From NCBI GenBank assembly GCA_019637395.1, contig JAHBVR010000026.1, forward strand, positions 1-64,000: a stretch of DNA of 64,000 bases, in the 5' to 3' direction. Position 1 is the first letter of the stretch. Every line of letters begins with the position of its first letter. Shown here in pieces: positions 622-59,863 of this stretch. The notes beneath the pieces are model-generated. The model was not told the origin of the DNA. It ran no database searches and saw only the letters and a list, made by a program, of their open reading frames with translations. Position numbers and translations under genes: made by a program. Origin of the DNA: Vulcanimicrobiota bacterium (lineage in GTDB: Bacteria; Vulcanimicrobiota; Xenobia; Xenobiales; JADMJV01).

Positions 622-1812
622 TTAGTGTTGTTGCTGGTGGATGGCCCGCACTTCTTCTCTCACCCAGGCGAGCATTCTTTGATAGGGCGGGTCTTCCACC
701 GGCTTGATACCGGACAGGTCGGTCTGAATGCCGTTGCGCGCCACCAGCACCTTCCAGCCCAGATCTAGATTCTTGTCCCGCGCCAGCCGTAGAGGGCTGG
801 CTTCCAGGCACAGTCCGTGATCGACGACGATGACCTGATCGGGGCCCTCGAAAGAACGAAAGAAAGCCACCGGAACTTTCCAAGGCTGACTCGCTTCCTG
901 CCAGTTTTCGGCCAGGGGAAACGGATCGGCTCCTTCCAGGTGGAGCTGATGGTTCTCCCCGGCGTGCTGAAAGGTGAGCAAAGGTTGTCCAGCGCTCGCC
1001 GACCAGCGAATGTCGGAGGCCAGGTGCCCGGCCAGGCTGAAATGAGCTACCCGGCTCGGAGGCGTGGCCAGGCGCGGCCTGTCAAACACTTGATTCCCTA
1101 CGGCGTAGTGGTGGGCCGGTAAGGCTTCGGGCGCGGGAACAACCAGCTGGTGGTCTGCCGGCCCCAGGTAGTAACGAGCGAAAAGCAGATCCCCGGCAGG
1201 TGCCTCAGGGTTGAGGCGGCGCCCATCCAGCCTGACCGGGGCGGTGGCGTAAGCCAGCTTTTGGGCAAAGGTGGAGGCCAACTGAGCCCGCACCGGGCCC
1301 AGGTTCGGGCTCTGCAGAGTCAGCCGCAGCAGGGGTTGCTCGCTGCCCTGCGGAGGCGGTCCGGCTTCCAGGCCGTTCTGAGTGAGTTTCCAGAATCCAC
1401 AGTCCAATCCGCAGTCTTGCAGCAAGAGGGAAACCTTGAGCCCCGCTTCCAGATCCATCAAGGCCTGCAACCAGAGCAAGCCGTTGCGCAGCAGGCCCAG
1501 AGCCGGAGCGTTGGATGGGTCATGCCCGCGCGTCAGAAAAGCGGAGAGGCCGTCGAGCCCGACCGAATGGGCGGGAAAAGAGGCGGTCAACAACAGCGTC
1601 TGCCGGCCCAATTGAAGGTGCAAGCCGTTACAACCCAGGGCGAACATGGCGCGGACCCACCAGTTGGCCCAGGAGGCCTGGTCAGACTCGAGGTATTGGC
1701 CGATTTTTTGACGGCTCTTGCTGGGGTCGAGGGTAAATTGTCCGCGCGAGGCCAGCTCTCCCTCACCGCTGAGTTGCTCGAGCAGGCTCTCGACTTCGTC
1801 CAGTTGGCTCAT
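622..1812 (-). CDS. GHKL-like (degenerate) family protein, paralog A
   Basis: This is a 396-residue cytoplasmic protein with no signal peptide or membrane segment. Residues ~8-35 (EQLSGEGELASRGQFTLDP) match the start of the proteins at 18092-19033 and 19030-20379 and the linker region of the kinase-like protein at 54671-56839. A helix-strand-strand block follows (about 45-80). It then has a 'DGRRLNP' block and a C-terminal block ending in QTDLSG (363-368) and 'PVED'. The order of elements resembles the N-terminal ATP-binding fold of HSP90 and histidine kinases, but the ATP-binding Asn and the DxGxG motif are absent. That fold assignment is inference; the paralogy is visible directly. The ATG at 1812 overlaps the stop of the upstream membrane-protein gene (ATGA), so the two are translationally coupled. 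Confidence 0.7.
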   Translation of the reverse strand: MSQLDEVESLLEQLSGEGELASRGQFTLDPSKSRQKIGQYLESDQASWANWWVRAMFALGCNGLHLQLGRQTLLLTASFPAHSVGLDGLSAFLTRGHDPSNAPALGLLRNGLLWLQALMDLEAGLKVSLLLQDCGLDCGFWKLTQNGLEAGPPPQGSEQPLLRLTLQSPNLGPVRAQLASTFAQKLAYATAPVRLDGRRLNPEAPAGDLLFARYYLGPADHQLVVPAPEALPAHHYAVGNQVFDRPRLATPPSRVAHFSLAGHLASDIRWSASAGQPLLTFQHAGENHQLHLEGADPFPLAENWQEASQPWKVPVAFFRSFEGPDQVIVVDHGLCLEASPLRLARDKNLDLGWKVLVARNGIQTDLSGIKPVEDPPYQRMLAWVREEVRAIHQQQH

Positions 1813-2447
1813 TCCAGGGAGAAGCCGAGGCGTTTGCGCAGGTACTGACCGAGCAGGTGGGAGAGCAGGAAAGCGAACGGAATGGCCGGACTCAGAGCGG
1901 TCGGCCAGAGATAGATCGAAGTCGCGGCGGCAGCCAGCAGCCCCAGCATCAGCAGGCCGTCCAGAGAGAGCGGAGGCCGGACCAGCAAATAGGCCAGACT
2001 GCCCAGCATGCGGTTGCCTTTGTCGGTGTCCCGGCCGCTCAGATAAAAGGAGTGGATCATACTGGCCCAGACCGAGGCGAACAGCCACAGCGGCAGCAGA
2101 TCCAGCAGCAGATAGGGACCGGGGGTGAAAAGATGGCTCAGGGGAAACTCCGCCACCAGCGCTCCCATGGCGACCAGGGTGGCGAAGCCCCACACAAAGC
2201 CTGTGCCCATACAGCCCAGACCCATGGCCGACTTGAAGTCCTTGGCCTGGGGAAGTTGGGCCTGGTCGGCCAGGATGGCCCCTTTGAGAACCTGGCTGCA
2301 GTATCCCAAGAGCAGAAAGGGCAAAATGGCTGCGCTGAAACCGGGTCCCAGGAGGTGCAGGCTGGCTTGCGAGAACAGCATCAGGTTGATCAGCGAGAGC
2401 GGATCGCGCGTCAGAGCCAGGAGGGCGGCGCTTAAACTGGTTTTCAA
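1809..2447 (-). CDS. Multi-pass membrane protein, unknown function
   Basis: A 212-residue hydrophobic protein with about five predicted membrane segments (roughly residues 15-40, 40-55, 80-100, 105-135 and 165-200) and a basic C-terminus (RKRLGFSLE). I do not recognise the family; the layout loosely recalls DUF4013-type proteins. I prefer a TTG start at 2447: it overlaps the stop of the upstream gene as TTGA and follows GGAGGAGAA. An in-frame ATG at 2480 would give a 37-base overlap with the upstream gene and no better ribosome-binding site. The gene is the middle member of a three-gene coupled operon (2444-3187, this gene, 622-1812). It probably acts at the inner membrane together with its neighbours. 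Confidence 0.6.
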   Translation of the reverse strand: MKTSLSAALLALTRDPLSLINLMLFSQASLHLLGPGFSAAILPFLLLGYCSQVLKGAILADQAQLPQAKDFKSAMGLGCMGTGFVWGFATLVAMGALVAEFPLSHLFTPGPYLLLDLLPLWLFASVWASMIHSFYLSGRDTDKGNRMLGSLAYLLVRPPLSLDGLLMLGLLAAAATSIYLWPTALSPAIPFAFLLSHLLGQYLRKRLGFSLE

Positions 2448-3187
2448 TTCTCCTCCCAGGGCAGGACGGGTCGGGACCAACTCGGCTCGGAGTCAGCCAG
2501 GGCCGGCCAGTGATTTTCCGGATAGGTATTGGTGAAACGCCCGCCGCTGGGCACCGCGTAGTGGGGGAGGTCCAGCTTGTGGGCCAGCCGGCGGCCGTCC
2601 CGGTGGCTCGGTTCGATACCTGAAATGCCGCTCTGGACCCGTACGAAACCTCCGTCTCCCAGCCAGAGGGACACCGAGTAGCTGACTTCTTCACCCGCTT
2701 TGGCTTGCTTCAAGCCGGAGACGACCGCCTGGGCGCGGCTCAGGTCAGTTCCGAAGCGAGTCAACTGCTGCCCCAGGAAGGTGCGGTGGTGCCAGACCTG
2801 ACCGCTTTCCAGGTCTAATTCAGTCCAAAGCTGCGAAAAAACACGATAGCAAAGGAATGGAAGGCTGAGCGCTACCAGCAATACCGCCGACCAGTTCCAG
2901 CACAGCAGAGTCAGGAGCACGAGCAGAGCCAGTTGAACTTTCTGGGAGCGCTCCGGCACTCTTTCGCGATAGCTGTTCTCCGCCACCCACTCCGGCGCCT
3001 GGCCAATCCGCCGCCAACTGGGTGAAAGGGTGAAGACCAGCAACCCGGCCAGGATCCCCCAGGGAAGGCCGGCCTGGGCCACCGCCGCCCCGGCCGTCCC
3101 GGCGAAGAGGCTGCGTAGAGCGTAAAAACAGAGAGGTCGTCCGGGTAGTAAGTCGCTTGCCTCGGGCCAGGCCAACTCGGATTCCAT
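2444..3187 (-). CDS. Membrane protein with soluble C-terminal domain
   Basis: A 247-residue protein with two hydrophobic hairpins (about residues 22-55 and 83-117) and then a ~130-residue soluble tail. The tail begins after 'ELDLESGQVWHHRT', an arrangement like that of small bacterial PH-like or DUF-type membrane proteins in which a beta-rich domain follows paired helices. No catalytic motif is visible. It is first in the operon that continues with another membrane protein (4-base overlap) and GHKL-like paralog A. The divergent gene at 3272 leaves 84 bases for promoters. Confidence 0.6.
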   Translation of the reverse strand: MESELAWPEASDLLPGRPLCFYALRSLFAGTAGAAVAQAGLPWGILAGLLVFTLSPSWRRIGQAPEWVAENSYRERVPERSQKVQLALLVLLTLLCWNWSAVLLVALSLPFLCYRVFSQLWTELDLESGQVWHHRTFLGQQLTRFGTDLSRAQAVVSGLKQAKAGEEVSYSVSLWLGDGGFVRVQSGISGIEPSHRDGRRLAHKLDLPHYAVPSGGRFTNTYPENHWPALADSEPSWSRPVLPWEEN

Positions 3188-18091: not shown

Positions 18092-19033
18092 TCAGCCTCG
18101 CTGATTGATCGAATCCAGCCAGGAAACTTCCGGCCGCAAGCCCTGCAAGCGCTGGCGGAAGGCCGCGTCGTGCACCAGCTCTAACCCGCTCAATGCCGGG
18201 GTCAGGCCGTCCGCGCTGACCACGGCGACCACCCCGGGACGATCGAGTAGATTGCGTTCGCCCTCGAGCAGCACTCCGTCGAGCACGAAGAAAGTCTCCG
18301 ACCAGGAGTTGCGGGTGGCTCCCAGCGCTGCGTGACCGGGTCGATTGAGCAGATCGTGAGGCTCGATGACCCGGTCGGCCAGGCGAACCCGCAGCTGCCC
18401 TGTCCACCCGGAAAAGCCGCCCAGTTCTCCAGGTGCGTCCGGGGTGGAAAGGACCACCGCCGTCGCGATTCGAGAAAGAGCCTCATTCTGGAAGAGGTTC
18501 ACCCCGTTCCAGGCCCATTCGATGCGACTCCACTGAAGCCGAGGCCCGAGCAGCCTTCGCACCCCGGTGGTCCAATCCCGGTGCCACCAGCGGGAATCCG
18601 GTCGGGTGATCTGCAGGTCGGTCCAGCATTCCTGATGAGGACTTGAGGCCGGAGCCTCGGCTCGGAAGCTCTCGGGCGCCACGTGGCCTGACCGCATCGT
18701 CCCCGCCCGGTGGAACTCCCAGCGCAGGTGATATTCGCGGCTCAGATTGAGCAGAGCCAGGCCAAAAGGTTCCGACGGCTCCCAGACTGGCTCGGGCAGC
18801 GGGAGTTGGTGCGCAAAGGAGACACTGAGGGAGTTCTTGCCCGATCGAAAGACCACCCTGGCCGGACGGAGCCGCTGTATCCCCTGGCACAGCTTCAAGA
18901 AGCCCTGAGAAGTACTCTGCAAACCCAACCGGGCCAGCAGTTCGCGCTGGCGGCGCGGGTCGACGGTGAACTGGCCGGCGCCGGCCGAGGCCAGGGCGCT
19001 GTGCTCGGCCAGGATCCCCTCCAGTTCGCTCAT
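18092..19033 (-). CDS. GHKL-like (degenerate) family protein, paralog B
   Basis: A 313-residue cytoplasmic protein, the shortest and most diverged of the four family members. Residues 1-26 (ending SAGAGQFTVDP) match the shared N-terminal block. 'LKLCQGIQRLRPARVVFRSGKNSLSVSFA' aligns with the helix-strand-strand core of paralog C. Near the C-terminus 'LDGVLLEGERNLLDRPGVVAVVSADGL' is followed by 'ALSGLELVHD', where the other members have QTDLSG-PV-D. None of the ATP-binding residues of true GHKL enzymes is visible. The ATG overlaps the stop of paralog C by four bases (ATGA), so the two are made together and may pair with each other. It is the last gene of a five-gene coupled operon. Confidence 0.68.
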   Translation of the reverse strand: MSELEGILAEHSALASAGAGQFTVDPRRQRELLARLGLQSTSQGFLKLCQGIQRLRPARVVFRSGKNSLSVSFAHQLPLPEPVWEPSEPFGLALLNLSREYHLRWEFHRAGTMRSGHVAPESFRAEAPASSPHQECWTDLQITRPDSRWWHRDWTTGVRRLLGPRLQWSRIEWAWNGVNLFQNEALSRIATAVVLSTPDAPGELGGFSGWTGQLRVRLADRVIEPHDLLNRPGHAALGATRNSWSETFFVLDGVLLEGERNLLDRPGVVAVVSADGLTPALSGLELVHDAAFRQRLQGLRPEVSWLDSINQRG

Positions 19034-20379
19034 TCCTGGTCCAGGCTGTGGAGGCGCGTGATCTGAGCCACGGCTGCTTCGCTGTAGCCGTATTTGGACC
19101 CCCAGCGCAGCGCCTTGCGCAGTTCCTTACGGCTGCGCACGGTTTCCGCGAGCAGCCAGGTCTCCAGCTTCTCGACCCGTTCGTCGCGCACCGGCACCAG
19201 GCCCGAGAGATCGGTCTGGACCGTATTATCCGACACGAAAGCGCGCGCCCCGGCCAACCCGAGCCGGACGGGTAGCGGATCGAGCAGGACTCCGTCTTGC
19301 TGGACCACCAGCTGACTCTCTCCTTGAGGCTGCACCGGGCAGCGCAGCCAGGCCCGAGCACAGAGCGGGCGCCGCAAACCGAAACGCCCCTGGGCCACCG
19401 GGAGTTCGGCCAGGGCAAAATGGTCCAGGCCGGTGACGTAGAGAATTTGATAACCGTTATTGCGGCCTCCTAGCCGCCCACCACGGATCAGCCCGTGATT
19501 GATCGCATAGGCTGCCTTGGGAATGCCAAAGACCTCCTGGATCACGTCCGATTCCAGAATCGGGAAGTCGGGCGACGGTTCCGCCTCCCAAAGCTTGTGA
19601 TCGGGACTGGATTTATAGCTGCGCCATTGGTGCAAAAGGGTAGAGCCGTAACTGTAGTGGTCCTTGTAGCCGTTACCCAGGTCATAGACCAGGCCGGGCA
19701 CCCGGGTCAGATGCGGCAGATGAAGCAGTTCCGCCGCCGGCCGGCGGGACAGATAGAGACGATCCAGCAAGACATGCTTACCCACCTGCGGCACTGCGGG
19801 ATTCAGTTGGCGGCGGCCCCAGCGCACCGTCAGCGGCGAGAGCGCGCAGCGGCCCGTCAGAACGCGTTCTTCCTCCAGCCAGGCAGCCGGGGTGACCGGC
19901 TTTAGCGCCAGCAAGCAATCGCAACCCTTACCGGACCGGCCCGGCATGCTCTGGCGCTGGATTTCCTGGCCGCGCACCAGATAGCTGAAACCGCCCTGCG
20001 CGTCGACGGCGCCCCAGGCCACGCTTTCCGCCCGGGCCGACCGGCTGGCATGGAAAGCGCGCAGAAAATGGGCCAGCGCCGGCTGTTCCTCCGAGCCCAG
20101 CGGCTGGTGGAGCAGGGTTTGCAGGTCCTGGAACTGGGAGCTGGTGAAGCCGGTCGCGTTGAATTGGACCTCCAGGCGGTCGCGTAAGGGGCGCACCAGC
20201 AGCTCGCGCGCACCGGAGGCGGCCGCCGCCTGCACCAGCTTGATCAGCCAGCTGGTGGGATCGCGAAAAAGGCGCTGCGAAAGTTTCTCCAGCGCTTTGG
20301 CGTAGTCGATGGAAAAGCTGCCCTGGGAATCACGAGAACCTTCCTGCGCCAGTTGCTCCAGGTAGAGAGCGAGATCCAC
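19030..20379 (-). CDS. GHKL-like (degenerate) family protein, paralog C
   Basis: A 449-residue protein and the clearest member of the family. Residues 7-33 carry 'LEQLAQEGSRDSQGSFSIDY' plus KALEKL. Then 'WLIKLVQAAAASGARELLV' (44-62) aligns in position with the N-box helix of HSP90/histidine-kinase ATPases, and 'RDRLEVQFNATGFTSSQF' with the DxGxG strand-turn. The key Asn, Asp and Gly residues are missing, so ATP binding is doubtful. 'RWGRRQLNP' and QTDLSG (388-393) recur in paralog A. The start is a GTG overlapping the upstream TAG stop (TAGTG). Operon partners are an M20 peptidase, a histidine kinase and a small secreted protein. Confidence 0.7.
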   Translation of the reverse strand: MDLALYLEQLAQEGSRDSQGSFSIDYAKALEKLSQRLFRDPTSWLIKLVQAAAASGARELLVRPLRDRLEVQFNATGFTSSQFQDLQTLLHQPLGSEEQPALAHFLRAFHASRSARAESVAWGAVDAQGGFSYLVRGQEIQRQSMPGRSGKGCDCLLALKPVTPAAWLEEERVLTGRCALSPLTVRWGRRQLNPAVPQVGKHVLLDRLYLSRRPAAELLHLPHLTRVPGLVYDLGNGYKDHYSYGSTLLHQWRSYKSSPDHKLWEAEPSPDFPILESDVIQEVFGIPKAAYAINHGLIRGGRLGGRNNGYQILYVTGLDHFALAELPVAQGRFGLRRPLCARAWLRCPVQPQGESQLVVQQDGVLLDPLPVRLGLAGARAFVSDNTVQTDLSGLVPVRDERVEKLETWLLAETVRSRKELRKALRWGSKYGYSEAAVAQITRLHSLDQE

Positions 20380-20768
20380 TAGTAACCGGGGGGTGAGGTG
20401 CTCGGCAGAGGCGTGTCATAGCCGGGAATGCCCTGGCTGGAGTTGGGCTGGCCGGAGCTGTAGCCATTGTAACCGTTGTTGTAGTAGTAGCCACTGCCCG
20501 GTCCGTAGTAATAATTGTTGTAATACCCATAGCCGCGATAACAGTTGGGGTTGTTGCGATGGTCCTGATGAGGATTGTCGTGCTGGGCCGGCTGCTCGGA
20601 GAGCTTGACATAGGGCATGGTGGGAGAGAATCCTGAGTTGTTATTGCGAATATCGCCGGCCTGTACGCTCCGACTGCCGGTTCCCCACGGTAGGGTGGGA
20701 GAGAAACCTTCCTGGGCGTAAGCCGCCGTGCACGTCAGGAGCAAGAATACGGGAATATAGATCTTCAT
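20379..20768 (-). CDS. Small secreted Tyr/Asn/Gly-rich protein
   Basis: A 129-residue exported protein with a signal peptide (IYIPVFLLLTCTAAYAQ). The mature part contains two copies of GFSPT(L/M)P(W/Y), then a low-complexity Tyr/Asn/Gly region ('YGYYNNYYYGPGSGYYYNNG') and a Pro/Ser-rich end. Such sequences are typical of disordered envelope or matrix proteins; no family is recognised. Its ATG overlaps the histidine-kinase stop by four bases, and its own stop overlaps the GTG of paralog C by one base. It is thus firmly placed between sensor kinase and GHKL-like genes. Confidence 0.7.
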   Translation of the reverse strand: MKIYIPVFLLLTCTAAYAQEGFSPTLPWGTGSRSVQAGDIRNNNSGFSPTMPYVKLSEQPAQHDNPHQDHRNNPNCYRGYGYYNNYYYGPGSGYYYNNGYNGYSSGQPNSSQGIPGYDTPLPSTSPPGY

Positions 20769-46994: not shown

Positions 46995-48893
46995 CTAGAG
47001 GCCTTTGGAAAGTGCCTGGGCGACCTGGCGGGTGAACTCGGCCGGCTTGGCCAGCTCGCCGCCCTCGGCCAGTAAGGCCAGCGAATAGAGCACCGAAGCC
47101 AGCGTACCCAGTTCAGCGCTGTCCTTGTTGGCCTCGTAGCCGCTCTGCAGCTTCTGCACGAAGGGATGGTCCGGATTCACCTCGAGAATGCGCGGCTGGG
47201 GCGGCATTTCCTGACCCATGGCCTTCATCAGCTTCTCGAAGTGCGGGCTGACGCCGTTCTCCTCGGTAACCAGGCAGGCCGGCGACTCGTGCAGGCGGCT
47301 CGAGACGCGCACTTCCTTGACGCCTTCCAGCTTGGAGCCCATCCAGCTCAGGAAAGTGGCCATCTCCTTGTTTTGCTTCTCGCGGTCTTCCTGAGCCTTT
47401 TTCTTTTCCTCGTCGCTGCCCAGCTCCAATTCGCCGGCCGCGGCCGACATGAATTTCATACCCTGGAATTCATGCACGACACTGAGCCAGACTTCGTCCA
47501 CCGGTTCGGTGAAGAGCAGTACCTCGACCCCTTTCTTCGTAAAAGTCTCCAGGTGGGGAGACTCGCGCAACTGGCTGAGGTTTTCGCCGGCCAGGAAGTA
47601 GATGGCCTCCTGCCCTTCGGCCATGCGCTCTTTGTAAGCCTCCAAAGAAACCCATTCGTCGCCCTTGGTGGAGTGGAACTGGGCCAGTTCCAGCAGGTTG
47701 TCGCGGCGGGCCGCATCCTGGTAGATGCCTTCCTTGAGCAAACGGCCGAACTGCTCCCAGAACTGTTGGAACTTCTCGGGGTGATCCGTTTTCATCGTCT
47801 TGAGGGCGTCACACACCTTGCGCACCAGATGCTTGCGGATCTGCTCGATCTGGCGTTCCTTTTGCAGCAATTCGCGCGACAGGTTCAGAGGCAGGTCGCT
47901 GGCGTCCACCACGCCGCGGATGAAACGCAGGTAAGTGGGCAGCAGCTCCTCACAGCGATCCGAGATGAGCACGCGGCGCACGTAGAGCTGCAGGCCACCG
48001 CGGTGGTCCTGCATCATCAGGTCCATACCGGCTTTGCTGGGAATGAAAAGCAGCGCCTCGTACTCGAAGGTTCCCTCGGCCTTGACCTTCAAGGTCTCCA
48101 GCGGCTCATGCCAGTCCTTGGAGATGTGCTGATAGAATTCTTTATATTCTTCCTCACTTACCTCGTCTTTGGGGCGCGACCAGAGGGCCTTCATCGAGTT
48201 CAAAGTCTCGTCTTCCACCGTGGTCACCGGCGGGTCGCCCTGAGTGACGGTGCGCTGCATGCGAATGGGGTAGCGAATGAAGTCCGAATGCTTCTTGACG
48301 ATGTCCTTCAAGGTCCAGAAGCTGGTGAAATCGCGCAGGCCGTTTTCTTCGTCCTTCTCGCGCAGCTTCAGGGTGATGGTGGTGCCGCGCTCTGTGCGCG
48401 AGCCTTCGCCCACTGTGTAGGTGCCGTCACCGTTCGAAGTCCAGAGCACGGCTTCGTCGCTGTCATAGCGGAGACTGTCGACGGTTACTTCGGTGGCAAC
48501 GATGAAGCTCGAATAGAAGCCGATGCCGAACTGACCGATCAGATCATTGACATCGCCCTTTTCCTTGAGCTTGGACATGAAGTCTTTGGTGCCGGATTTG
48601 GCGATGGTTCCCAGCAGATGGACCACGTCGTCTTTGTTCATGCCGATGCCGTTATCGCTGATGCTCAACGTGCGTTCGGCCGGATCCACCGCCAGGCGAA
48701 TGTGCAGATCGCTGACATCCAGAGGCTTGTCGTGGGATTGGGCGGCTTGCAGGCGCACCTTGTCCAGCGCGTCGGACGAGTTGGAGATCAACTCGCGCAA
48801 GAAGATTTCTTTCTCGGAGTAAACCGAGTGGACCATAAGCTCGAGGAGCTGGCGGGTCTCCGCCTGAAATTCGTGAGTTTCTACAGCTGACAT
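46995..48893 (-). CDS. htpG: Chaperone HtpG (bacterial Hsp90)
   Basis: A 632-residue ATP-dependent dimeric chaperone. The intact GHKL ATPase motifs are clear: 'ELISNSSDALDKVR' (ATP-site Asn), 'ISDNGIGMNKDD' (DxGxG) and 'GQFGIGFYSSFIVA'. The middle domain has 'SLEAYKERM' and the conserved catalytic-loop Arg in 'LNLSRELLQ'. The C-terminal dimerisation domain follows. Length agrees with E. coli HtpG (624). CAGGAGAT sits 8 bases before the ATG. Upstream I see no CIRCE-like repeat. It offers a direct local contrast to the four GHKL-like proteins that lack these motifs. Confidence 0.96.
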   Translation of the reverse strand: MSAVETHEFQAETRQLLELMVHSVYSEKEIFLRELISNSSDALDKVRLQAAQSHDKPLDVSDLHIRLAVDPAERTLSISDNGIGMNKDDVVHLLGTIAKSGTKDFMSKLKEKGDVNDLIGQFGIGFYSSFIVATEVTVDSLRYDSDEAVLWTSNGDGTYTVGEGSRTERGTTITLKLREKDEENGLRDFTSFWTLKDIVKKHSDFIRYPIRMQRTVTQGDPPVTTVEDETLNSMKALWSRPKDEVSEEEYKEFYQHISKDWHEPLETLKVKAEGTFEYEALLFIPSKAGMDLMMQDHRGGLQLYVRRVLISDRCEELLPTYLRFIRGVVDASDLPLNLSRELLQKERQIEQIRKHLVRKVCDALKTMKTDHPEKFQQFWEQFGRLLKEGIYQDAARRDNLLELAQFHSTKGDEWVSLEAYKERMAEGQEAIYFLAGENLSQLRESPHLETFTKKGVEVLLFTEPVDEVWLSVVHEFQGMKFMSAAAGELELGSDEEKKKAQEDREKQNKEMATFLSWMGSKLEGVKEVRVSSRLHESPACLVTEENGVSPHFEKLMKAMGQEMPPQPRILEVNPDHPFVQKLQSGYEANKDSAELGTLASVLYSLALLAEGGELAKPAEFTRQVAQALSKGL

Positions 48894-53911: not shown

Positions 53912-54705
53912 GACTTGGCTATTCTTTCTGCCCGAACGACACCTTCATCTTCCACGCCCTGACCCACGGCCTGGTGCCCGGCCACCAGGTCGAAGAGGTA
54001 TTGGCCGACGTGGAGACTCTTAATCAATGGGCTAAAGAGGGTCGTCTGGAACTGACCAAGGTCAGCTATCATGCCCTTTTCCATGTGCTCGACCGCTACC
54101 TGGCTCTGCGCAGCGGCGGCGCCCTGGGCCGCGGGGTCGGTCCCCTGCTGGTGGCCAAACCCGGCGCGCTCCTGAATGAGGTGGCTACCCCCGGCGAGTG
54201 GACCACCGCCCACCTGCTCTTGAAGCTGGCCCAACCCCGGCAGGCCACCGTGTGCATGCGCTACGACCTGATCATTCCGGCCATTCTCAGCGGCGAAGTG
54301 GATGGGGGAGTGCTCATCCACGAGTCGCGCTTCGCCTACCAGGACTATGGGCTGGAGGCCCGCCTCGACCTGGGTGAGTGGTGGGAAGGGGAGAGCGGGC
54401 TGCCCTTGCCGCTGGGAGCGATCCTGGCCCGCCGTGACCTGGGAGCGGAGCGACTCCAGGCCCTGGATGCCGCCGTCAGAACCTCGCTGGAGAAGGCCTG
54501 GCAAGATCCGGAGCAGAGCAAGGCCTACATCCGCCAGCACGCTCACGAACTCTCGGAAGAAGTGGTTGAGCGGCACATCCGCACCTACGTCAATGAATTC
54601 TCTCGAGACGTGGGTCGCGAAGGCGAAGCAGCCGTGCGCGAACTTCACCGCCGGGCGGTGGCCGCCGGCCTTACTCCCGACTCGGATTTGCCCCTGTTCG
54701 TCTGA
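53908..54705 (+). CDS. mqnD: 1,4-dihydroxy-6-naphthoate synthase (MqnD)
   Basis: A 265-residue enzyme of the futalosine pathway that converts cyclic dehypoxanthinyl futalosine to 1,4-dihydroxy-6-naphthoate for menaquinone. The opening 'LGYSFCPNDTFIFHALTHG' is diagnostic, followed by 'DVETLNQWAKEGRLELTKVSYHAL' and 'GRGVGPLLVAKPG', and the catalytic His-type region 'VDGGVLIHESRFAYQDYGL'. It has the periplasmic-binding-like fold and usual length. Other mqn genes are not in the window. It is coupled to the symporter gene by ATGA overlap. It overlaps the convergent pseudokinase gene by 35 bases. Confidence 0.92.
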   Translation: MRLGYSFCPNDTFIFHALTHGLVPGHQVEEVLADVETLNQWAKEGRLELTKVSYHALFHVLDRYLALRSGGALGRGVGPLLVAKPGALLNEVATPGEWTTAHLLLKLAQPRQATVCMRYDLIIPAILSGEVDGGVLIHESRFAYQDYGLEARLDLGEWWEGESGLPLPLGAILARRDLGAERLQALDAAVRTSLEKAWQDPEQSKAYIRQHAHELSEEVVERHIRTYVNEFSRDVGREGEAAVRELHRRAVAAGLTPDSDLPLFV

Positions 54706-56839
54706 GTCGCAACCGGCTCTGCGTCCAATGTTTGGGCAGCAACAGCAGCCAACCCTGACGTTGCGAAATGGAAAGCTCGTCCACCGGCAGTCGGGCATGC
54801 AGCAGCGGATCGAAGCGGGCGTCCAGCCGTTGATCCGGGAAGCGGGACAAGAGCGAGCCCAATTGCTCCAGGTCGGGTTTCACCAGTCCCCATTCCAGCC
54901 AGCACTGCAACAGCCAGTGCAGACGCGCATGTTCTTGGGCGAAGGCTCGCTGGCTGATCTCCAAGGCCTTTTCCCAATCCGCCGAAAGCAAGGGAAACCA
55001 GCGGCTGCGGCAGGCCAGCTCCCAGAATTTCGCCGGCGGCGTGGCCCAGCCGGCGGCGCGCCGGAAGCACTCCTCGGCTGTCTTGGAAGGGTCCAGGCCC
55101 CCATCCTGAAGATTCAGGAAGGCCGAAGTAAACCGATCGAGCTTGTCGTCCTGACCACCTTCCTTCCAGCACACCAGAGCCCGCCGGTAAAGGCGGGTGG
55201 GCTGGCTGTCCAGAGACTCGGGCGCCAGCGCGAAGTCCTCGATGGCCGCCTCTATCGCCGCCTTCAGCTGTAAGCGTAGCTCCGCCAACTGCTCGTCCTC
55301 GAGCAAGGCCCGCCGGTCCGCGTCCAATCGCAGCGGCCCCCACACGACCACCCGGCCCGACTCCAGCACCAGGTGCTCCAGCGGAAAACTCATGCCGTCC
55401 ACCACCGCCAGCCATAGAGGCGCTTCCAGCAGGTCGACCCGTAGGGAGAAGCCTTCCGTGGGAAAGGGGCGATTGGCCACCACGGTGGATTGCCACCTGC
55501 CCTGCCAGCAAATCGGCAGAGGAGTAAACAGAAAGCGCCGCCGCACTTGATCCCAGGCCGGTTCCGGGCAGTCCTCCAGACGAACCTGTAACTGGGTGAC
55601 CAACGCCCGCCCCAACCGCTCCTTTTGCACCTGATCGGTGCGCAGTTTCCAACCGGCGCTGGCCACTTCCACCCACCCGCCGTGTTGGGTTAAAGCCGAG
55701 GCCAGTCCGCGAGCCAGGTAGCCGCTGCCGCCCTGATGGCTGCCGTAGGCGGACAGCCAGAAGTTCCGCAACTGCTCCTGGTTCAGGCGCACTCCCTGGT
55801 AGTTTAAGGTCAGGCGCCGTTTCTGCCATTCCAGAGATAGCTTTTCAGCTCCCAGAGCGGCTCCGGCCGCGCACAAGGAAACCAGCCACTCCCAGGGTTC
55901 CGGAAAGCGAAAGTGGCTCAACTTCTCCAGAGCCTGAGCTGGATCGAGCGTGAATACTTCGTTTTCCGTGACGGTCTGGCCCTCGGCCCGCAGCTCGGCC
56001 AATACCTCCTGAATTTCCGGGCCGCTGGCGCTGACAACGCCTCCCTCCAGGTAGCCCAGAACCTCGGCCGCCTGGCTCAGCCGTTTCTGAGGATCGCGCT
56101 CCAGCAGGCGAAGCAACAGTTCCTCGAAAGGCGGTGAAAGATGTTCGAGGGAGGGCAGCTCCTCCTGAATGATCTTGAAGATCACCTGGATAGAGTTGTC
56201 TGCCTCGAACAAGGGCCGGCCACTGAGCAGCTCAAAAGCGAGGCTTCCCAGCGTGAAGTAGTTGGTGGCCGGAGAGAGCGGTCCGCCCAGAATCTGTTCC
56301 GGGGCCATAAACCGGGGAGAGGGTAGATCGTAAGAACCCACGTGAACCACCTGGGCTTGCAGTTTCGCAAAGGCGAAATCGCTGAGGCGGACACGATCTT
56401 CTTGTACCCAAATACAGTCCGGCCCGAGCTGCTGGTGCACAACACCGCTTTGATGGGCATAGGCCAGGGCCGCCGTGATTTGGCGCAACCAGGGAAGCAC
56501 GCGCTCCGGCTCCAAAGCGGGCCCCATCAGGTCGCGCAGCGGTTGGCCGAGGTCCCCGGGGCGGACATACCAGAACCATTCCCCCTGTTCGGCATAACTC
56601 AGCAAGGGAACGATGCCGGGATGCTGCAATCGGGAGTAGAGGGCGGCTTCGCGCAACAGGCGGGTGCGCGCTTCGGGCTCCAACGGTCTCCATTCCGGCC
56701 AGACCGTGGCCACTACCTGTTGCTGGTGACTATCTTCAGCCAGCCAGGTAGACCACCCGTTATTCTCCTCTTCGAGCAGGCGCAGCAAGGTCAGGCGCGC
56801 GCCCAGGATGGTCTGAAAAACCCGCCAGCGGTCGGGCAC
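54671..56839 (-). CDS. Pseudokinase fused to a GHKL-like domain (paralog D)
   Basis: A 722-residue soluble protein. Residues 1-265 follow the Ser/Thr kinase fold: 'LLREAALYSRLQHPGIVPLL' with αC Glu64, 'AALAYAHQSGVVHQQLGPDCIWV' for the catalytic loop, DFA (154-156) for DFG, APE (179-181), and 'RDPQKRLSQAAEVLGYL'. The VAIK Lys is replaced (Val46), the catalytic Asp by Gln137 and the metal-binding Asn by Cys142, so it is probably inactive. Residues ~275-550 are the fourth copy of the GHKL-like family: 'LAELRAEGQTVTENEVFTLDP', AQALEKL, 'WLVSLCAAGAALGAEKLSL', and 'VDGMSFPLEH' late. The last ~170 residues are helical repeats. GTG start. It is last of an operon with a zinc-ribbon protein, an ACAD-like enzyme and a cupin (57-base gap). 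Confidence 0.75.
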   Translation of the reverse strand: MPDRWRVFQTILGARLTLLRLLEEENNGWSTWLAEDSHQQQVVATVWPEWRPLEPEARTRLLREAALYSRLQHPGIVPLLSYAEQGEWFWYVRPGDLGQPLRDLMGPALEPERVLPWLRQITAALAYAHQSGVVHQQLGPDCIWVQEDRVRLSDFAFAKLQAQVVHVGSYDLPSPRFMAPEQILGGPLSPATNYFTLGSLAFELLSGRPLFEADNSIQVIFKIIQEELPSLEHLSPPFEELLLRLLERDPQKRLSQAAEVLGYLEGGVVSASGPEIQEVLAELRAEGQTVTENEVFTLDPAQALEKLSHFRFPEPWEWLVSLCAAGAALGAEKLSLEWQKRRLTLNYQGVRLNQEQLRNFWLSAYGSHQGGSGYLARGLASALTQHGGWVEVASAGWKLRTDQVQKERLGRALVTQLQVRLEDCPEPAWDQVRRRFLFTPLPICWQGRWQSTVVANRPFPTEGFSLRVDLLEAPLWLAVVDGMSFPLEHLVLESGRVVVWGPLRLDADRRALLEDEQLAELRLQLKAAIEAAIEDFALAPESLDSQPTRLYRRALVCWKEGGQDDKLDRFTSAFLNLQDGGLDPSKTAEECFRRAAGWATPPAKFWELACRSRWFPLLSADWEKALEISQRAFAQEHARLHWLLQCWLEWGLVKPDLEQLGSLLSRFPDQRLDARFDPLLHARLPVDELSISQRQGWLLLLPKHWTQSRLRLRRTGANPSRE

Positions 56840-57247: not shown

Positions 57248-58452
57248 TAACCGAGCGCCGCTTCGAAAAGACCGGTGAACGGCTCTTCGCCCAACATGGC
57301 TTCTCCGGCCGACCTCTCCAGTCGAGCCGAAATGGTCGGATGCATCGGTCCGAAACAGATCTGCTCGCTGAGTGCGTAAAGGGGATGGTTGACCGACATG
57401 GAGCGAGTGCCGATCAGACTGCGCGCTCCCGCCACGATTTCGGCGGCGGCGGCAGTGCCCGCCCATTTAATGCAAGAACCGCAGTCCATCAGTTCGCTGG
57501 CCACTCGATCCAATCGCTCGGCTTCGGCTTCTTCCCGTACCAACCGGCAGTAGAGTTCGGCGCACACTCCAAAGCTGCGGGCCATGGCCAGATTGGAACG
57601 TAATTTCAGGGCCAGACGCCCGCATTCCAACTGGAAGCCGTCCAGGTCGGCCAGCATTTCCTCGTCCTCGGTGTGCACGGAACGTCCGAAGCGGCGGACT
57701 TCCTCCAGGGCCCGGCTGGCTCCACCCAGGTAGACGGCGCTGCACAGCGCCTCGAACCAGGCGGTGGCGTAAAAGGAAACGTGGTCGGTCAGGTCATCAT
57801 GTAAGGAGAGCACGTTGCGTTGTTTGATGATCAGATCGTTGAAATCGACCGGGCGTGTGTCGGAAGGGGCCATGGCGCCGGCGAAGAGCGAAGGGCCGAT
57901 GACCAGCTCGGGCCGATCCTTGATACTGGTGTAAAACATCCCCTGGTGCTCCCCGATCTGGCCCGAGAAGAGCAGCAGGTCGGCCTCGGAAGCCATGGAC
58001 TGAAAGCCCTTGCGGCCCCGACACAAATAAGTGCCGTCGGAGCGCTGGTTGACGATGACATTGCGGAAGGGATCGTTCTTATTCTTGATGTTCTCGCCGA
58101 AGCTGGAGATGGCCAGCAGCGACCGGTATTTGCGAATGGTGTCCACCAGAATCTGGCGGCGTCTTTCGAAATCGGGCGCGTTGGGCACGGGCAGGGTGGC
58201 CAGCGCTGACAGGTTGTACTGGTGCATGGTCAGGCCGATGGCCAGCGGTACCGAGGCCCGCCCCAACAAGAACAGGGCTTCATAGGAACGCACATAGAGT
58301 TCGCCCGCCTCCGTCTGCAGTTCGCAGGGCAGGTAGGGGATGCGGCTGGCCCGGACTCCGTCAAAGAAAACGCGCGAGCGCGTTTCGGCGGGCGCGGCCT
58401 GGGTGGCTTCGGCGATCTCGTGGGCCTGGCGGCGAATCTCCTCGGCACTCAT
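57247..58452 (-). CDS. Acyl-CoA dehydrogenase-like flavoprotein
   Basis: A 401-residue ACAD-fold protein. The central strand region 'SDGTYLCRGRKGFQSMASEADLLLFSGQIGEHQG' (read as adjoining segments) resembles the ACAD 'G-x-x-x-x-G-x-K-x-x-x-x-x-x-x-A-D' block. 'SFYATAWFEALCSAVYLGGASRALEEVRRFG' matches the start of the C-terminal helical domain, and 'GGSR/GTRSMSVNHPLYALSEQICFGPMHPTISARLE' the C-terminal substrate region. The usual FAD-binding 'TEP.aGSD' segment is poorly conserved (ISSFGENIKNKND), so catalysis is uncertain; DszC/monooxygenase-type relatives are alternative. ATG 58452 overlaps the upstream stop (ATGA). Confidence 0.72.
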   Translation of the reverse strand: MSAEEIRRQAHEIAEATQAAPAETRSRVFFDGVRASRIPYLPCELQTEAGELYVRSYEALFLLGRASVPLAIGLTMHQYNLSALATLPVPNAPDFERRRQILVDTIRKYRSLLAISSFGENIKNKNDPFRNVIVNQRSDGTYLCRGRKGFQSMASEADLLLFSGQIGEHQGMFYTSIKDRPELVIGPSLFAGAMAPSDTRPVDFNDLIIKQRNVLSLHDDLTDHVSFYATAWFEALCSAVYLGGASRALEEVRRFGRSVHTEDEEMLADLDGFQLECGRLALKLRSNLAMARSFGVCAELYCRLVREEAEAERLDRVASELMDCGSCIKWAGTAAAAEIVAGARSLIGTRSMSVNHPLYALSEQICFGPMHPTISARLERSAGEAMLGEEPFTGLFEAALG

Positions 58453-59291
58453 TCCGAAGTTTCTTCCTCTTCCGCCTCCTCGGCCTGAGGCAACAACTGC
58501 GGAACCACCGCCGCGGCCGCGAAAACCTGCTGCCAGCCCTGGTGCAGCTCGCGGGTCGAGCGATTTTCCTGAACCGCGTGCAACCGGTTGATGCCTTCGA
58601 CGGCTCCATTGATCACGTCCAGCAAGCGCTGGTGCGGGGGACTGTCTTCGGCCGCCTGCTCGGCCAGCGCCTGCGCTTCCAGCAGGCTGAATTCGAGCGC
58701 CTGCAGCGATTGCAGCAGCGGCTCCAGCCCGGCTTTGCCTTCCAGGATATTGGCGTAGGCCTCGTAGACGGCCAGGAACTCCTCGCCCACCATGGCCCGG
58801 CTGTAGTCTTCCTCCAGCTGGCTGGCGTCCGGTATGAGCCGGTCCAACTGGCAGGTCGGACAGAGATTTTCCGGACCGGCGCCACCGCAGCGTGGACACA
58901 GGGGCACGGAGGAAGAGCCGAGAGCGGCCAGCTGATCGCAAGTTTCCAGAAACTCGCTGACGGCCCGTTCAAAAATCTCGCGAGCTTCCGGAGAATTTTC
59001 CTGAAGGATGTGCTCCAGACTGGTGTCGAGCGCCTGACAGGCGCCCAGATTGCGCTCGATCAGGGCGGCTACTTCGGGGCTGAGGTGATTGCGCCGATCC
59101 TCAAAGGCTGCCTGCCGGTCACGCCAGGCCTCCTGAATGCGCTGGCGCATGCGCCACAGCGGATCCTCCAGCTCGCCGGCCTCGGAGCGGAGCAACTGCA
59201 CCAGTCCCTCGAGGCGATTGGGATCGGGCCCTTCGGACTCTCCTCCCAGAGAACTGATCAGACTGTCGAGATAGTTTCCGGCCAAGCTCAC
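58449..59291 (-). CDS. Zinc-ribbon helical protein, unknown function
   Basis: A 280-residue protein, mainly helical, with one zinc ribbon in the middle (LCPRCGGAGPENLCPTCQ, two CPxC knuckles, about residues 138-154). Acidic tail (EEAEEEETSE). Helices before it ('ALIERNLGACQALDTSLEHILQ') and after it could form a bundle. No family is recognised. It is the first gene of the operon that continues into the ACAD-like protein (4-base overlap), cupin and pseudokinase-GHKL-like fusion. It starts at 59291, just after the terminator of the KAGKHG-repeat gene. Confidence 0.6.
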   Translation of the reverse strand: MSLAGNYLDSLISSLGGESEGPDPNRLEGLVQLLRSEAGELEDPLWRMRQRIQEAWRDRQAAFEDRRNHLSPEVAALIERNLGACQALDTSLEHILQENSPEAREIFERAVSEFLETCDQLAALGSSSVPLCPRCGGAGPENLCPTCQLDRLIPDASQLEEDYSRAMVGEEFLAVYEAYANILEGKAGLEPLLQSLQALEFSLLEAQALAEQAAEDSPPHQRLLDVINGAVEGINRLHAVQENRSTRELHQGWQQVFAAAAVVPQLLPQAEEAEEEETSE

Positions 59292-59353: not shown

Positions 59354-59863
59354 TTAGAAACCGGCGCGACCGAAGTTGTTCATAAAGCCCCCGAAGCCGG
59401 GTTGCATCCCGAAGGAAGCCATCCCCTGGTTCTGGCCCTGGGAAAGAACCCCTGCGATGAGGTTGGTGAGCTTCTGCTTGGCGCTGCCGGGGCCGCTGAG
59501 CAGTTGGCCGGCGCCGGGGCCAGAGATAGCGATGGCAATATTCAGGTTGCCGCCCTGGTGGAGGGGGCTGGAGTAACCATCCTGGCAGCCGCAACCGGCT
59601 TTACCCGCTTTGCCGGCCTTGCCGTGTTTACCAGCCTTGCCGTGCTTACCGGCTTTACCGTGCTTGCCGGCCTTGCCATGCTTGCCAGCCTTGCCGTGTT
59701 TGCCGGCTTTGCCCGCCTGGGGCTGCTGGCCGAGGGCCTGAGCGGCCTGCTCTTCACTGACGTTGGCGGTGATGGCGATGGCCAGAGACATCGAGTTCTG
59801 CTGCTGGGGCAGGCCAGCCGGGCCGCCGAAGGACTGGAAGTTGTTGCCAAGTGCTAGTGCCAT
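59354..59863 (-). CDS. KAGKHG-repeat protein
   Basis: A 169-residue low-complexity protein. Residues 1-50 are Gln/Gly/Ala-rich; 51-90 consist of a basic repeat of period six (GKAGKH), shrinking to GKAGKAG; CGC follows at 91-93; and the rest is Gly/Met/Phe-rich ('NNFGRAGF'). No signal peptide is obvious. The two Ala/Ile strands 'SLAIAITANV' and 'LNIAIAISGPG' flank the repeat. The His/Lys-rich repeat could bind metals, nucleic acids or polyanions. GGGGAG precedes the ATG, and AT-rich sequence with AAGCTTAAA repeats lies upstream, so strong expression is likely. Confidence 0.65.
   Translation of the reverse strand: MALALGNNFQSFGGPAGLPQQQNSMSLAIAITANVSEEQAAQALGQQPQAGKAGKHGKAGKHGKAGKHGKAGKHGKAGKHGKAGKAGKAGCGCQDGYSSPLHQGGNLNIAIAISGPGAGQLLSGPGSAKQKLTNLIAGVLSQGQNQGMASFGMQPGFGGFMNNFGRAGF
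59595..59719. repeat. 18-bp coding tandem repeat (KAGKHG)
   Basis: About seven copies of an 18-bp unit on the plus strand vary around TTGCCGTGTTTACCAGCC. They differ mainly at third positions, which shows selection on the protein rather than on DNA. Such arrays change length by slippage, so copy number may differ between strains. Confidence 0.85.

Follow-up and report, generated by a model that had tools for sequence, protein, structure and literature searches.

Four minus-strand proteins in the window, by which we mean the whole 64-kb stretch of DNA analysed here, were described in a first-pass annotation as a four-member family that shares three ordered blocks and a GHKL-like fold without the ATP-site residues. 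All four open reading frames, here called members A to D, are present, together with two distinguishable parts of D:

622..1812, minus strand: member A, 396 aa from the ATG at 1812, nested in a longer 690-aa ORF
18092..19033, minus strand: member B, 313 aa, with a 4-bp overlap between its start and the end of C
19030..20379, minus strand: member C, 449 aa, GTG start; predicted to be a complete dead HSP90-type module of N and middle (M) domains
54671..56839, minus strand: member D, 722 aa; kinase-like domain, predicted dead HSP90-type module and C-terminal tail
55205..56011, minus strand: common module of D, residues ~277-545 (HMM envelope)
56063..56680, minus strand: protein-kinase-like domain of D, residues 54-259 (Pfam Pkinase 2.5e-26)

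Member A overlaps by 4 bp the 3′ end of a hydrophobic 223-aa ORF (1809-2480, minus strand). Pairwise BLASTP connects A with C over the full length (1e-10), C with D (8e-9) and A with D (1e-4), and gives only 0.02 for B. We also built a left-out HMM solely from family members elsewhere in the genome, without window sequences. When run against 913 window ORFs, it retrieves C (3e-58), A (2e-41), D (1e-24) and B (3e-17) and no others. Because the left-out profile picks exactly these four among 913 ORFs, their paralogy is far above chance, and chance similarity can be eliminated as its source. The claim that all four align significantly with one another holds by BLASTP for A, C and D; B, the furthest diverged of the set, is weak in pairwise comparison, yet its profile score is highly significant.

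The family is much larger than four. A genome search places about 47 loci (fragments merged) in the bacterium's own genome (7.66 Mb, 36 contigs), spread across it, with four copies in the window. The proposed clade-specific multiplication is thus correct as to the clade, but it is genome-wide rather than a 55-kb event. Nor are the genes always in operons: of 42 own-genome members, 15 lack any same-strand neighbour within 100 bp and the other 27 have one, with genes at these loci called by a simple codon-usage script. Counted in relatives as matching fragments, not merged loci, the family reaches 75 and 76 in two other genomes of the genus (63 in the own genome), 103 in a second genus of the same taxonomic family, 30 in another family of the order, 7 in a third family and 1 in one distant genome of the phylum. 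It was found in 14 of 149 genomes of the phylum (Eremiobacterota), and the named relatives from a close-relative scan of the genome collection are ‘Candidatus Eremiobacterota’ MAGs. Copy number is similar or higher within the taxonomic family, and the proteins are rare or absent in the rest of the phylum. In a tree, the paralogs within a single genome are strongly diverged from one another while orthologs are present across the genus, so the amplification is old. No model in Pfam, NCBIfam or PADLOC matches the family module, and only D shows a known domain, the kinase-like one. In the open-access literature we did not find dead chaperone-like proteins described on such a scale.

The proposed GHKL-like fold is supported at the level of sequence profiles, and the profile-profile comparison named as its check identifies a more specific relative. 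When aligned by hhalign with a profile of HtpG sequences from relatives, the family matches the HSP90 N and M domains in order (Prob 96%, E 1.7e-9), and the derived members alone still give 91% (E 1.5e-7). Reversed and column-shuffled controls reach at most 0.26%, and the other families compared (MutL, histidine kinase, M20 peptidase, YbjQ, GltB) stay at or below 0.5%; an origin from MutL or histidine kinases was rejected on such values (0.04-0.5%). Taken singly, the N domain matches HSP90 at 28% and the M domain at 8%; the four window proteins alone give 0.5%, being too few sequences for significance. A C-terminal HSP90 dimerisation domain was not found in the family by hhalign to the HtpG C domain (0.2%). 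A search of the whole PDB with a family HMM containing neither HSP90 nor partner sequences (the partner is described below) returned 14 matches, all TRAP1/HSP75, with a best E of 2.6e-5; the TRAP1 alignment runs along the N-domain strands, through ‘fPIfLNGRrLN’ and onward. A true HSP90 is also encoded in the window and served as the comparison protein:

46995..48893, minus strand: HtpG (Pfam HSP90 6e-133)

The family HMM matches this HtpG directly (E 2.4e-6), and among 392 proteins from own-genome regions its only non-family matches are HtpG and two partners. In addition, an ancestor-like relative (L072) can be aligned by eye with the HtpG N-terminus over 33 residues without a gap. We conclude that the module is, by these profiles, an HSP90-type N domain (GHKL/Bergerat) followed by an HSP90 middle domain (S5-like).

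Could this resemblance be a profile artefact that hides a different fold? The AlphaFold models, each from an alignment of only 6-7 sequences, are weak (pLDDT 38.8 for a full-length ortholog and 62.8 for the N domain, the latter with a GHKL-like helix/strand order), and Foldseek with these models found no GHKL match. One family profile of 11 sequences (A2) does not match HSP90 in the PDB and the broader A1 and A4 profiles do, so the direct HSP90 signal varies with the breadth of the alignment. Against an artefact, however, the broader profiles match HSP90 only (PDB, 2.6e-5), the partner (4e-18) and the window HtpG, the match spans two domains in the correct order, and all negative controls fail. 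We regard an artefact as very improbable.

Member C illustrates how the blocks and the nucleotide site map onto this architecture:

20281..20343, minus strand: block 1, residues 13-33, EGSRDSQGSFSIDYAKALEKL; N-terminal strand and helix preceding the N-box, the best-conserved motif of the family
20209..20250, minus strand: N-box helix, residues 44-57, WLIKLVQAAAASGA; counterpart of RELIQNSLDAG, with the catalytic Glu, the Asn and the Asp all substituted
20146..20175, minus strand: strand and loop corresponding to DxGxG, residues 69-78, ‘LEVQFNATGF’; Phe takes the place of Asp
19180..19296, minus strand: block 3, residues ~362-400, ‘DGVLL...VSDNTVQTDLSGLVPV’; HSP90 middle-domain motif by the TRAP1 alignment, with the catalytic-loop Arg gone

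The three blocks had been read as following the Bergerat order. This is correct for blocks 1 and 2, which lie in the GHKL domain, but block 3 falls within the HSP90 middle domain, where it corresponds to the motif around the catalytic-loop Arg (LNLSRE in HSP90). To follow the site through 67 family members, residue columns were read against the partner alignment at positions invariant there (13/13). The absence of the ATP-site Asn and of DxGxG, noticed at first in the window, extends to the whole set: the N-box Asn is found in 0/67 members and 13/13 partners (Ala in 42/67), the N-box Asp in 0/67 (Ala in 41/67), and the DxGxG Asp in 0/67 against 13/13 (Phe in 40/67), with the final Gly of that motif in 6/67. 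The catalytic Glu remains in 6/67, with Lys in 33/67, and the G-box glycines in 5/67, 3/67 and 29/67. The middle-domain Arg, present in 8/8 HSP90 and 13/13 partner sequences, is retained in 3/67, the change being to Gly/Gln. Ancestor-like long members share in the loss. Alignment to HSP90 itself by hhalign places the N-box differently, so it is the partner alignment that carries the N-box equivalence at residue level. The ATP-site residues are thus lost throughout the family, and ATP use by the known mechanism is predicted not to be possible.

The partner came from a search with the sacsin domain PF25794, which found proteins of 500-600 aa encoded just upstream of long family members. Their motifs are intact (N-box RELIQN.LDAG, a DTGEGM-type motif and GKFGIGF); they match HATPase_c_3, exceed the SACS (PF25794) cut-off in three of four cases, and also match MutL profiles. 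By hhalign the partner matches both the family (99.1%, E 3.8e-18) and HSP90 (99.6%, E 9.5e-24). HSP90, partner and family form separate clades in a tree (SH-aLRT 99 each) in which the family is sister to the partner; finer branching is unsure because of the quick method and long branches. The nearest relative found is therefore, on sequence grounds, an ATP-site-intact, sacsin-type HSP90-like protein, and A-D fall within a large monophyletic family of predicted pseudo-HSP90s. Pairs of a partner gene and a family gene occur at nine fetched loci in seven genomes, among them L185 and L186 in the own genome. A third own-genome partner (L187, contig G000:C36, 1805-3418, minus strand) is overlapped by a 580-aa gene upstream of it and lacks an adjoining family member. 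At one locus in another genome (L188, contig G006:C346, 2199-7955, minus strand), the partner domain and a dead module are fused in a 1919-aa ORF and followed by repeated middle-domain-like segments. Thirteen genomes have both protein types, one the family alone, two the partner alone and 62 neither; the partner thus accompanies the family in 13/14 genomes versus 2/64 without it (Fisher p 6e-12, uncorrected for relatedness). The ancestral arrangement in the order and class was likely an active gene with a long dead one immediately downstream.

Given that family and partner are sister clades and turn up together across genomes, we read the system as an active/dead pair of which the dead half has been amplified. 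In the joint reading, to which we give a probability of roughly 0.6, the modules form a pseudo-HSP90 family derived from such a pair and act as non-catalytic partners. Common descent, domain composition, the missing ATP site, the pairing of active and dead genes and the expansion are seen at sequence level, whereas the function of the modules is proposed. The amplification took place in one taxonomic family of the lineage, where most copies are remote from partner genes and carry differing added segments. Through their N/M surfaces the dead modules would bind one another or the few active HSP90-like ATPases and would supply targeting or client-binding parts to asymmetric active/dead complexes, one engine with many adaptors. 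A precedent is a laboratory construct of yeast Hsp82, lidless and ATPase-dead, that stimulates its active partner within a heterodimer (PMC5018835), an analogy that makes the idea plausible but is no proof of it here. A non-catalytic partner role is favoured by the gene pairs, the fusion and the joint occurrence in genomes; taken as a statement about function by itself, that dead modules serve as partner subunits is tentative, at clearly less than even odds. More speculative, and in our view doubtful, is the specific division of labour in which specificity lies with some 45 or more dead paralogs and a mere two or three ATP-driven proteins of HSP90-like type serve them, the system having arisen from the ancient pair.

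The numbers within the genome set a different reading beside this one. The own genome holds about 47 dead copies, about three active partners and one HtpG, and only 2 of the about 47 members adjoin a partner gene. If the modules instead act alone, they would share the same ancestry and serve as ATP-independent scaffolds, chaperones or ligand-binding domains with varied outputs, the pocket emptied or reused. Such independence would suit copies that far outnumber their partners, that mostly lie distant from partner genes (with 15/42 outside tight operons), and that carry varied additions, among them a kinase-like domain, hydrophobic C-terminal segments and long tails. It fits less well with an ancestral arrangement in which the dead gene is closely paired with, or fused to, that of an active protein, and with a family almost never found without the partner. 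We consider it less likely, although the solitary majority may have turned into independent scaffolds or ligand-binding domains. The additions are exemplified by member D, whose kinase-like domain has HQQ in place of HRD (HRR in a congener ortholog, by ortholog alignment); since the HRD Asp is missing, this domain is probably a pseudokinase, joined to a predicted pseudo-HSP90.

Selection on members B and C was assessed against three congeners, in which the C-B pair is kept beside the same histidine kinase and a 129-aa secreted-looking protein. Both genes have dN/dS of roughly 0.13-0.28 (about 0.13-0.25 for C), ratios that are rough because dS is near saturation, and their dN is about two to seven times that of neighbouring enzymes. 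B and C are under purifying selection, and their synteny is kept. That the copies are decaying relics, or selfish and functionless, could be argued from two own-genome copies (C6:73436-74366 and C6:190421-191447) that appear frame-broken, being split over short frames, and that may be pseudogenes or assembly errors. Nearly all remaining copies are intact ORFs, however, the dN/dS values of B and C are well below 1 with synteny kept, and orthologs are found genus-wide, so that this account has hardly any chance of being right. The fast divergence of B and C, with dN several times that of adjacent genes, would also suit a conflict or defence repertoire in which the modules are recognition subunits of a sacsin- or Tiamat-like GHKL system, and the partner N domain is weakly similar to Tiamat TmtA and MzaB models. 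But the TmtA match covers a GHKL motif of ~100 aa in a ~1500-aa model, and PADLOC models match the kinase-like domain of D alone, not the family module. Vertical retention, with orthologs and synteny across the genus, also argues against a defence role, as do the lack of a defence family among the 25 of 48 neighbour families listed and the absence of relatives in the viral contigs and plasmids searched. We judge a defence role improbable, though less so than a relic or an artefact.

Relative to known systems, the family shares with HSP90/HtpG/TRAP1 the colinear GHKL N domain and middle domain and the motif around GVVDSEDLPLNLSRE, and differs in lacking the C-terminal dimerisation domain and the ATP-site residues, in its about 47 copies and in forming a separate clade; the curated HSP90 models of Pfam and NCBIfam match none of the members scanned. 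The active partners mostly exceed the cut-off for sacsin-type proteins (Pfam SACS PF25794, NCBIfam NF047352), and the long members and the fusion likewise carry multiple HSP90-like modules per chain; unlike sacsin, however, partner and family are mostly separate genes, and family members stay below the cut-off (best E 0.16, for one ancestor-like member). With the GHKL ATPases (MutL, gyrase B and histidine kinases) the weak N-domain model shares its helix/strand order, whereas the N-box Asn and DxGxG Asp are absent (0/67) and no profile match to the MutL or histidine kinase sets is seen. The likeness to Tiamat TmtA is confined to a weak one over the first ~100 residues of the active partner; the remainder of the partner is dissimilar, and the family module does not match.

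Genomes usually carry one or a few HSP90 genes. This bacterium keeps about 47 HSP90-derived modules that are predicted to be ATP-incapable, and its relatives perhaps keep more. If they are paired with active relatives, they would provide a natural test of the role of a dead subunit in an HSP90 dimer, for which engineered mutants have been used so far. The assignment gives a predicted fold to dozens of uncharacterised Eremiobacterota proteins, and the active/dead gene pair, as a defined system, lends itself to expression and testing.

A pathway common to the neighbours was also sought but not found, the neighbours being diverse, and this counts against the partner reading. A Pfam tally of 30 close same-strand neighbours showed no repeated family except two AAA_16, and an all-against-all comparison of 220 neighbours returned mainly two-component proteins and a few type IV pilus/type II secretion-like genes. 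Six copies (L198, L200, L209, L213, L219 and L226) lie within three genes of predicted PulF-like and minor pilin-like genes. The 129-aa protein between the histidine kinase gene and C (20379-20768, minus strand) has a signal-peptide-like start, is rich in Asn, Tyr, Gly and Pro, and is fast-evolving and retained in the congeners. Near D, the protein encoded at 58449-59291 (minus strand) is homologous to one near another member (L219:2295-3065), the two being 256-280 aa long. A window ORF at 59354-59863 (minus strand) contains tandem ‘KAGKHG’ repeats.
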